A DNA stretch of 40,030 nt from Pseudomonadota bacterium (GTDB taxonomy: Bacteria; Pseudomonadota; Alphaproteobacteria; Micropepsales; Micropepsaceae). This document shows positions 23,859-26,758 of this stretch, piece by piece. Made by a program: the position numbers and the translations under genes. The DNA is taken from assembly GCA_029778105.1 (NCBI GenBank), contig JAKOQZ010000084.1:1-40030 (forward strand), in the 5' to 3' direction. Position 1 is the first letter of the stretch; every line of letters starts with the position of its first letter. Under the pieces are notes generated by a model. The model had not been told where the DNA came from. It searched no databases and saw nothing but the letters and a program-made list of their open reading frames with translations.

Positions 23859-24788
23859 CTATTTAGGCGCGTTCAGCGCCCAGACAAGGACCGCCTTCTG
23901 GGCGTGCAGACGGTTCTCCGCCTCATCCCACACCGCCGATTGCGGCCCGTCGATCACCTCCGGCGCCACTTCCTCGCCGCGCTTGGCGGGCAGGCAGTGC
24001 ATGAAGATCGCGTCTTTCTTGGCGCGCGCCATCAGCTTCTGGTCCACCTGATAGGGGCGCAGCAGGTTGTGGCGGTATTCCTTGTCGCCGTCGCCCATGG
24101 AAACCCACGAGTCGGTGATCACGCAGTCCGCGCCGTCCACCGCCTCGTCCGGATCGTGGGTCAGGCGCAGATCCACCTTGTTGGCGGCCGCCCAGTCGAC
24201 CAGCGCCTTGGGCGGGCTCAGCTGCTCCGGCGTCGCCACCTTCAGCGTCACATCCAGCTTGGCTGCCATATGCACCCACGAGGCGAGCACATTGTTGCTG
24301 TCGCCCGACCAGGCGATGGTGCGCCCGCGCACGCTGCCCTTGCGCTCCTCGAAGGTCAGCACGTCGGCCATCACCTGACAGGGATGCGACTTCTTGGTGA
24401 GGCCGTTGATCACCGGCACCTCGGCATAGTGCGCCAGCTCCAGCAGCTCGTGATGGCTCAGCATGCGGATCATGATCGCATCGACATAGCGCGACATCAC
24501 CCGCGCGGTGTCCGCGATGCTCTCGCGATGGCCCAGCTCGATCTCGTCGCCCGAGACCATCAGCACATGCGCGCCCAGCTCGTTGATGCCCACGTCGAAC
24601 GACATGCGCGTGCGCAGGGACGGCTGCTGGAAGACGACCGCGATCTTCTTGCCCAGAAGCGGCAGATAGTCGCCCAGCTGGCCCTTCACGCGCCGCGCCT
24701 TCAGCGCCTTGCCATGCGCCAGCATCGCCTCGATCTCGGCGGTGGAATGATCGGCGATATCCAGAAAATGCTTCGGCTTGTCGCTCAT
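23859..24788 (-). CDS. argF: Ornithine carbamoyltransferase
   Basis: Cytoplasmic arginine-biosynthesis enzyme of 309 residues that joins carbamoyl phosphate and ornithine to citrulline. The carbamoyl-phosphate motif reads SLRTR (residues 57-61) instead of the textbook [17 protein letters not shown] and the ornithine-site motif [13 protein letters not shown] (Cys265) are canonical. DSWVSMGD supplies the SMG loop. The length is normal. The start codon overlaps the argD stop as ATGA (24788-24785), so the two are translationally coupled. N-acetylornithine transcarbamylase also varies at the second motif position, but the intact HCLP motif and argD partner favour the ordinary enzyme. Confidence 0.95.
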
Positions 24789-25975
24789 GCGGCGGCGTCT
24801 TTCTTGGCTTCGAACGACGCGGCGGCCGCGCCGATGGCGGCGATCCCCTCGCTCAGTTCCGCATCGCTCACCGTCAGCGGCGGCAGGATGCGCACGACAT
24901 TATCGCCCGCGCCCACGGCGAGCAGATGACGCTCGCGCAGCGCGGCGGCGAATTCGGTGTTGGGCACGCGCAGCTTGAGGCCCAGCAGCAGGCCTTCGCC
25001 GCGCACCTCCTCGATCACGCCGGGATGCTCGTCCTTCAGCATGGCCAGCTGCTGCTTGAAGCGCAGCGACGCCTCGCGCACCCGCTCCAGGAAACCCGGC
25101 GCCAGCACGACGTCCAGCACCGCATTGCCCACCGCCATCGCCAGCGGATTGCCGCCGAAGGTCGAGCCGTGCGTTCCGGCGACCATCCCGGCCGCCGCGC
25201 GCTCGGTCGCCAGACAGGCGCCCATCGGAAAGCCGCCGCCGATGCCCTTGGCGATCGCCATGATATCCGGCGTCACGCCGGCCCATTCATGCGCGAACAG
25301 CTTGCCGGTGCGCCCGACGCCGGTCTGCACCTCATCGAGGATCAGCAGAAGGCCGTGCTCGTCGCAGAGCGCGCGCAGGGCCCGCAGGAACTCGCCCGGC
25401 ACGGGGCGCACCCCGCCCTCGCCCTGGATCGGCTCGATCAGGATGCCGGCGGTCTCGGGCGAGATCGCCGCCTTCAGCGCCGCGAGATCGCCGAACGCCA
25501 CCTGGTCGAAACCGTCGACCTTGGGCCCGAAGCCTTCCAGATATTTGGCCTGGCCGCCGGCCGCGATAGTCGCCAGCGTGCGGCCGTGGAACGCGCCTTC
25601 GAAGGTGATGATGCGGAACTTCTCCGGGTGCCCGTTATGGCTCTGGAACTTCCGCGTCATCTTGATCGCGCATTCCAGCGCCTCGGCGCCCGAATTGGTG
25701 AAGAACACCGTGTCGGCGAAGGTCGCCGCCACCAGCCGCTCGGCGAGCCGCTGCTGCCCCGGAATGCGGTAGAGGTTCGAGGTGTGCCACAGCTTCTGCG
25801 CCTGTTCGGTCACCGCGGCCACCAGATGGGGGTGGGCGTGACCCAGCGCGTTCACCGCGATGCCCGAGCCGAAATCCAGATATCGCTGCCCGTTCTCCGC
25901 GATCAGGTATGACCCTTCGCCCCGCTCGAAAGCGAGGTCGGCGCGGCTATAGGTGGGCAGAACGGGCGTGATCAC
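24785..25975 (-). CDS. argD: Acetylornithine aminotransferase
   Basis: PLP-dependent aminotransferase of 396 residues, converting N-acetylglutamate semialdehyde to N-acetylornithine in arginine synthesis. Class-III signatures are clear: [37 protein letters not shown], the Asp of [14 protein letters not shown], and Lys243 in [12 protein letters not shown], which forms the Schiff base. The start is GTG at 25975. No ATG is available in frame before the first conserved block, and the neighbouring ATG at 25980 is out of frame. It is the first gene of the argD-argF-hslO run and diverges from gcrA across a 312-bp intergenic region. Confidence 0.95.
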
Positions 25976-26287
25976 GGCATGGGGTCCACATTGTCCCGCC
26001 GCGAGCCGGCGGGGACAGGTGGAATAAGGGATTTGCGCCCGCCGCGCGAGACCTGATCTTCACCCGGCCGGCCCGGCCGCCGCACGATCATCCGCCTACG
26101 GACAAGGGCGTTTGGACTCATTTTGGACTCATGATTCGCGCAATGTTCCTGTTGGCAGAGCTTAACGAACCCTTGTGCCGGGCCTGCGAACCGTGACCAT
26201 ATTTGGTGTGCGGCTTGGGGTTGAGCCAAAGGCCAACCACTAGCCCTAGGGGGCTTTCAGTTTACACTTTTATCAAGAGGGGCAGAC
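25976..26287. promoter_or_regulatory. argD-gcrA intergenic region with GANTC cluster
   Basis: This 312-bp gap between divergent genes holds a perfect tandem 11-bp repeat TTTGGACTCAT (26111-26121 and 26122-26132). Three CcrM methylation sites GANTC fall in 23 bp (GACTC 26115-26119, GACTC 26126-26130, GATTC 26133-26137). A partial CtrA-like box TTAA-N7-TTgt lies at 26162-26176. Nearer gcrA is an AGCCC...GGGCT hairpin around the palindrome CCCTAGGG (26244-26251), then AGAGGGG as the ribosome site. An 85-codon minus-strand frame (25972-26229) crosses the gap but looks non-coding. Confidence 0.6.
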
Positions 26288-26758
26288 ATGTCCTGGACTG
26301 ACGAACGTATCGAACGTCTGAAGCAGATGTGGACCGAGGGGCTCAGCGCCAGCCAGATCGCGCGGGCGCTGGGCGAGGTCACCCGCAACGCGGTGATCGG
26401 CAAGGTGCACCGTCTGGGCCTCGCCGGCCGCGCCACGGCGCCCCGGGTCGAGCGCCCGCGGCCCGCGCCGCAGCCGCGGCTGCACACGCCGCGCGTCTCG
26501 GTCATGCGGGCCGAGCCGGTGGTGGAGGAGCCGCTGGAGCCGATGCCCGAGAACGCGGTCACGGTGGTCGATCTCTCGGCGACCGTCTGCCGCTGGCCGC
26601 TGGGCGACCCGGCGACGCCGGAGTTCCGCTTCTGCGGCCGCAAGGCCAAGGCCGGCGCGCCGTATTGCGAGGCCCATGTCCGCATGGCCTACCAGCCGGC
26701 CCAGTCGCGCCGCGACCGCGACCGCGATCTGGTCCGCAAGCGCCTCAATTTCGGCTGA
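26288..26758 (+). CDS. gcrA: Cell-cycle regulator GcrA
   Basis: Alphaproteobacterial transcription regulator of 156 residues that binds sigma-70 RNA polymerase and promoters with methylated GANTC sites, promoting S-phase and division genes. The N-terminal DNA-binding domain is unmistakable: MSWTDERIERLKQMWTEG, then LSASQIARALGEVTRNAVIG and KVHRLGLAGR (residues 1-48). A Pro/Arg linker follows, and the polymerase-interacting C-terminus carries CRWPLGDP, FRFCGRKA and APYCEAHVRMAY with its conserved cysteines. AGAGGGG lies just before the ATG. GANTC sites in its own upstream region suggest control by the methylation cycle. A strong terminator follows at 26813-26841. Confidence 0.97.
   Translation: MSWTDERIERLKQMWTEGLSASQIARALGEVTRNAVIGKVHRLGLAGRATAPRVERPRPAPQPRLHTPRVSVMRAEPVVEEPLEPMPENAVTVVDLSATVCRWPLGDPATPEFRFCGRKAKAGAPYCEAHVRMAYQPAQSRRDRDRDLVRKRLNFG

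Follow-up and report, generated by a model that had tools for sequence, protein, structure and literature searches.

A cluster of CcrM methylation sites upstream of gcrA in an alphaproteobacterial genome and its probable link to methylation-sensitive expression

Here we describe the intergenic region upstream of gcrA in a window of 40,030 nucleotides (the whole stretch of DNA that was analysed), which comes from a 291-contig draft genome. The gene encodes 156 amino acids (26288–26758, forward strand) and was correctly named in the original prediction: its product matches PF07750 with an E-value of 4.6e-48. This family model also scores above its cut-off in Sulfolobus acidocaldarius, an archaeon among the control genomes. 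gcrA shares its intergenic region with a divergent argD-like gene (24785–25975, reverse strand), named only on the strength of its sequence and of argF lying next to it. Between the two genes, on the forward strand, a perfect 11-bp tandem repeat (26111–26132) is formed by two copies of TTTGGACTCAT that lie head to tail, at 26111–26121 and 26122–26132. Three GANTC sites, the recognition sequence of CcrM, start at 26115 (GACTC), 26126 (GACTC) and 26133 (GATTC) and together span 23 bases. The two perfect adjacent copies and the three sites within 27 bp are thus exact in the sequence, as originally predicted. The third site (26133–26137) had been placed 1 bp after the second; it does follow immediately after the second repeat copy, but lies two bases (AT) past the second GANTC. 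Its context, TGATTCG (26132–26138), fits the extended GcrA consensus YGAKTCG, as given in PMC7987155, and the site is found in the same place in all five members of the genus that were compared. A palindrome, TCCGnnTACGGA (26091–26102), is located between the cluster and the argD-like gene and is kept in four of the five genus members, and nearly so in the fifth.

GANTC is strongly avoided in the window, which holds 33 sites where dinucleotide shuffles average 185. If 33 sites are scattered at random, 0.4% of 40-kb windows contain an equally tight triplet. No other perfect 11-bp tandem is present in the window, and none occurred in 100 Markov-sampled sequences with the same dinucleotide frequencies. 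Since the window avoids GANTC to this degree, the cluster is far from chance: it is a real feature and probably a functional one.

Conservation was assessed in an alignment of the window genome with four others of the genus (G001–G004). Conservation in close relatives, which the original prediction had named as a check, holds for one part of the cluster and not for the other. The exact tandem is lineage-specific, being present in two of the five members, the window genome and its nearest relative (G002, gcrA locus L032), and absent from G001, G003 and G004. Third-site GANTC, by contrast, is kept as YGATTCG together with its flank in all five. The third site is therefore the old core, and the tandem a lineage-specific extension. 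G001 has five GANTC sites in other places, and G003 and G004 have one or two within 250 bp and no triplet at gcrA. Where the tandem does occur, it looks maintained: between the window and G002 it is identical at 21 of 22 positions, the third GANTC at 5 of 5 and the stretch 26138–26180 at 39 of 43, giving 91–100% across the block 26111–26180, whereas the flanks have diverged to 64% on the argD side (70/109) and 70% in the leader (53/76). The conserved flank of the third site contains AATGTTCCTGT (26142–26152, forward strand), which is invariant in the five genomes and stands at a fixed distance from the third GANTC. This element may be a degenerate site of the DnaA type; alternatively, it may supply the −10 and start of a second promoter that is linked to methylation. 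We also considered it as a regulon motif and rejected that idea because it occurs about once per genome (one copy in each member of the genus, plus one extra in G004). In other genera of the family (L011, L013, L023, L025 and L028), the gcrA promoters carry a DnaA box, TTGTGGACAA, 33 bp upstream of CTTGTG or CTTGTA, and the genus of the window has AATGTTCCTGT nearby in its place.

Further downstream, all or nearly all of the five genomes have in common a TTAAC element (four of five) that runs into CTTG; close to where the −10 is expected, they also share the palindromic sequence CCAnATnTnGT. On this basis we predict a −35 element TTGTGC (26173–26178, forward strand), whose CTTG is found in all five genomes and whose CTTGTG is common in the family, and a −10 element ACCATA (26196–26201, forward strand) after a 17-bp spacer, which would place the gcrA start near 26208. 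A strict sigma-70 scan of the region found no promoter, and these core elements are thus proposed from conservation only. The predicted −35 is overlapped by TTAA-N7-TTGT (26162–26176, forward strand; TTAAC kept in four of five), which we take to be a CtrA-like site from the established CtrA consensus. Measured from the predicted start, the methylation-site cluster is about 70–95 bp upstream and so outside the interval from −35 to −10. Either the cluster may work from upstream, or there may be a second promoter, with a −10 of AATGTT, directly 3′ of the third site, which alone would bring a GANTC into that interval.

The genome encodes CcrM, a protein with PF01555 and RAMA domains and rnhB as neighbour, which scores 625 bits (E 3.6e-188) with the NCBIfam CcrM model, below its curated cut-off of 830. 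In pattern counts across the draft genome, a search for three GANTC sites with gaps of up to 15 bp gave 23 matches at 14 distinct loci, against none for the reversed pattern used as control; sister genomes gave 12–23 matches against 3–5 for the control. Six of the 14 loci are gcrA, ccrM, cckA, divL, a DivJ/PdhS-like kinase gene and the rpsT–rhodanese region. This is a plain count and not a formal enrichment, and the cell-cycle names were given after the loci had been seen. Upstream of ccrM there are 13 GANTC sites in 290 bp (L135:2928-3217, G000:C217), some of them beside a TTGAC −35, and each of the five genus genomes retains the cluster. The arrangement GANTC-N6-GANTC-TTGACnnn-GANTC-N6-GANTC is likewise found upstream of ccrM in the five. 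The cckA cluster has five sites in 69 bp (CckA model E 2e-152). At divL, a PAS-rich kinase gene lies behind an ahcY-like gene, and Tyr replaces the phosphoacceptor His of its product (SYQL); these three traits point to its being divL. The DivJ/PdhS-like histidine kinase gene has seven GANTC sites and both PdhS and DivJ among its best models. The rpsT–rhodanese cluster is kept in four of five genus genomes and, in the complete sister genome G003, stands directly before dnaA with DnaA-box sequences. In the complete sister genome, the distance from the contig end that carries dnaA is 0.57 Mb for gcrA and 1.1 Mb for ccrM; with an origin close to dnaA, replication would therefore reach gcrA first and make it hemimethylated before ccrM. 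Other GANTC clusters were seen in different settings. At L141:1967-2172 (G000:C6), nine sites occur in about 205 bp between convergent trxB-like and HAD-like hydrolase genes, and are therefore not an ordinary promoter cluster; this one is also present in G002. Another lies within an mnmE-like coding sequence (L146:2012-2035, L206:1125-1144) and is kept in G003, and a triplet is located directly upstream of an nrdJ-like (ribonucleotide reductase) open frame in the same complete sister genome (G003:C1:2736327-2736365).

Across 65 alphaproteobacterial gcrA loci, the 250 bp upstream of the gene contain 9.3 GANTC per kb, compared with 3.8 in shuffled sequences (maximum 5.0 of 200) and 1.0 inside the gcrA open reading frame. 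Triplets within about 41 bp are found at 11 of the 65 loci, and seven palindromes used as controls form none. In a similar genome set, the DNA that precedes ribonucleotide reductase (nrd) genes has 4.0 sites per kb. In a nearer set of 37 gcrA loci the excess is modest (5.9 versus 3.4 per kb), and 19 of the 37 have fewer than two sites in 250 bp; both figures count against a methylation-based reading, as do the missing gcrA triplets of G003 and G004 and the control matches in the sister genomes. That the sites upstream of gcrA turn over while their richness returns fits a methylation cluster better than a single fixed operator. Particular arrangements recur in some lineages: an inverted pair GACTC-N8-GAGTC (13-bp spacing, TTGCGC inside), possibly around a −35, is kept across several Hyphomicrobiales, with Bradyrhizobium-type loci L081, L106 and L133 as examples, and in other families (upstream of gcrA at L003, L067 and L077) two abutting GANTC sites are followed by ATGTGGATAA, a DnaA box, and then by a third GANTC.

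The importance that the original prediction gave to the one-turn spacing of the first two sites survives for the CcrM system and not for gcrA as such. Among 29 non-redundant ccrM promoters, which hold 12.9 GANTC per kb against 4.2 when shuffled, 15 contain a pair of sites 11 bp apart, compared with 3.1 expected from random placement within the occupied span; none of 2,000 permutations reached this number. The frequency of such pairs at ccrM promoters makes the one-turn spacing a feature of the CcrM system, and one of them, GACTCAAATGGGACTCAT (L228), closely resembles GACTCATTTTGGACTCAT at the gcrA gene of the window. As a general feature of gcrA, the spacing was rejected: it is present at four loci only (L001, L032, L108 and L131), and gcrA promoters favour a 13-bp spacing, largely owing to the Bradyrhizobium-type loci.

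Taken with the Agrobacterium tumefaciens case, the GANTC-rich gcrA promoters and the triplets of the genome itself make methylation-sensitive gcrA expression the best explanation. The proposal that gcrA expression is tied to the methylation of its own promoter is thus upheld by the enrichment of GANTC, the CcrM encoded in the genome and reporter assays in A. tumefaciens. We consider it probable, with some reserve, that the cluster is an upstream group of CcrM sites whose methylation state alters promoter activity, as in Agrobacterium; its position upstream of the predicted core promoter counts against this, as does the chance that it acts on the divergent argD-like gene. The sites would be fully methylated before replication, and passage of the fork would leave them hemimethylated until late S phase, when CcrM is produced. 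This switch in state would alter the activity of the gcrA promoter, so that the gene would sense that it had recently been copied. By analogy with Agrobacterium, full methylation would probably lower this activity, with a burst following replication. The conserved core would be the third site, TGATTCG, with its flank AATGTTCCTGT, and the 11-bp tandem would add to the number of sites and bring in the spacing common in ccrM promoters. We infer the methylation of the sites in vivo, the sign of its effect and the protein that reads the state, for which the candidates are GcrA, at the third site, and RNA polymerase.

Direct autoregulation, in which GcrA would bind the methylated cluster cooperatively, with the tandem on one face of the helix, and so control its own promoter, had also been proposed. 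GcrA of several Alphaproteobacteria binds methylated GANTC (PMC3667746), the third site matches YGAKTCG and does not vary within the genus, and a spacing of 11 bp comes near to one turn of the helix. The tandem copies, however, do not fit the consensus (on the reverse strand they read TGAGTCC, with the last base off), are absent from three of the five genus members and, like the whole cluster, fall outside the −35/−10 region of the predicted promoter; furthermore, a word search of the main texts of two GcrA ChIP–seq studies (PMC7987155 and PMC3667746) turned up neither the gcrA promoter nor autoregulation. The idea of direct autoregulation with a cooperative tandem is thus not supported in its proposed form: direct binding of GcrA at the third site is possible, if unlikely, cooperative binding at the tandem finds no support, and autoregulation as a whole is unlikely too. 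Another alternative places the cluster within a second, upstream gcrA promoter, with TGATTCG preceding the −10 AATGTT, AATGTTCCTGT serving as −10/start and TTGTGC/ACCATA forming a separate promoter. A block of the GATTCGnGnAATGTTCCTGT type is fully conserved with fixed spacing in all five genus members, and in Caulobacter GANTC is found at −24 to −29 in ctrA P1 and podJ P2 (PMC4287350); on the other side, a conserved −35 is lacking at the appropriate distance, AATGTT agrees with a −10 at only three of six bases, and the strict scan of the region was empty. Such a promoter seems doubtful to us, and would in any case be one way for the methylation explanation to work. Neutral origin, through relaxed avoidance of GANTC outside genes (the site is rarer in coding DNA) and a chance 11-bp duplication, would suit a tandem present in two of five species; it is improbable, given a density well above that of nrd promoters and shuffles and a tandem block conserved between two species with diverged flanks. 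That the cluster mainly serves the argD-like gene, whose start is about 140–160 bp away, is very improbable, as the shared intergenic region and the palindrome TCCGnnTACGGA on the argD side are outweighed by the enrichment of GANTC upstream of gcrA across many orders and by conserved blocks that lead into the gcrA core promoter.

The core promoter itself overlaps two elements that resemble the NrdR box. NrdR is the repressor of ribonucleotide reductase genes; its 16-bp box reads ACACWATATnTWGTGT, and promoters of its regulon carry two such boxes spaced by roughly three helical turns. Element 1, TAACGAACCCTTGTGC (26163–26178, forward strand), matches at nine or fewer of 16 positions, in the right half only; element 2, TGACCATATTTGGTGT (26194–26209, forward strand), begins 31 bp after element 1, matches at 11 of 16 and has a palindromic core, ACCATATTTGGT. 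The pair in the window is thus weak, its first element being a half box, and it overlaps the constraints on −35 and −10. Over 83 gcrA promoters, the mean best pair score is 18.75 at a spacing of 31 bp and about 16.6 at other spacings, against 15.2 in shuffles (s.d. 0.15) and 14.3 in a control region. The NrdR half-site beats 300 of 300 column permutations, both for single boxes and for the peak at 31 bp; per-position counts of the box derive from rows selected by score. Single boxes scoring 11 or more of 16 are present in 59% of gcrA promoters, and two good boxes at some loci (L067, L072 and L077). The nrdJ promoters of G003, G004 and G061 also have box pairs 31 bp apart. At ccrM promoters, elements scoring 12 or more of 16 are found in 20%, compared with 0.9% in shuffles (GCACAACATCTTGTGT in L229 and CCACCATATATGGTGG in L255 are two such box-like elements), and no 31-bp pair was found in the partial promoter set that was searched. 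Part of the signal is explained by the fact that TTGTG-N16-TACGAT also reads as −35/−10, and correlating NrdR presence with boxes at gcrA is uninformative because NrdR is nearly universal (32 of 33 genomes, that of the window included). We tentatively suggest, as a reading that these box patterns allow but do not make probable, that the gcrA promoter joins two replication signals across Alphaproteobacteria: hemimethylation of CcrM sites, reporting that the fork has passed, and NrdR, reporting dATP/ATP supply, bound to 31-bp pairs over the gcrA core promoter and to a single box at many ccrM promoters. If so, NrdR-like boxes would tie dNTP supply to the cell-cycle oscillator and to the same gcrA switch. 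A literature search confined largely to open-access papers found nothing linking NrdR with gcrA or describing alphaproteobacterial NrdR boxes. Deletion of nrdR in Caulobacter is reported to give hyper-spreading, as expected of a longer swarmer phase (PMC12186491, 2025).

If methylation control of gcrA is correct, it would be a recurring design and not a peculiarity of Agrobacterium, in this lineage clusters of CcrM sites would mark further core cell-cycle genes as well, and hemimethylation would feed back on its own reader protein. The comparative data single out the third site as the GANTC of first interest, and the comparison with ccrM makes the 11-bp spacing worth attention. The ccrM promoters of Alphaproteobacteria resemble the gcrA region of the window in their dense GANTC and 11-bp pairs, and differ in having more sites. 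Caulobacter ctrA P1 and other CcrM/GcrA promoters likewise combine GANTC, in the promoter of a master cell-cycle gene, with a neighbouring CtrA-like site (PMC3667746 and PMC4287350). However, the GANTC of ctrA P1 lies at −29 and that of podJ P2 at −24, and Caulobacter sites located between −35 and −10 are a distinct class with timing of their own (PMC4287350), whereas the predicted start puts the cluster described here at about −70 to −95. A 2010 survey of alphaproteobacterial cell-cycle circuits (PMC2877005) also tallied the GANTC sites in 500-bp windows ahead of cell-cycle genes, gcrA among them, and concluded that methylation control could not be derived. The closest parallel is the gcrA promoter of A. 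tumefaciens, which similarly has many GANTC sites just upstream (six in 250 bp) and is controlled by methylation state: according to PMC11514494 (2024), CcrM represses it in reporter assays, methylation lowers its activity both in Agrobacterium itself and in E. coli cells that express CcrM, and the authors propose that the hemimethylated state after fork passage activates gcrA. Agrobacterium belongs to another lineage, repression was shown there by reporters and is proposed here from sequence alone, and the available text of that study describes no perfect 11-bp tandem at its gcrA. The cluster thus belongs to a kind already shown in Agrobacterium, and the correction made here is in which of its sites forms the core.
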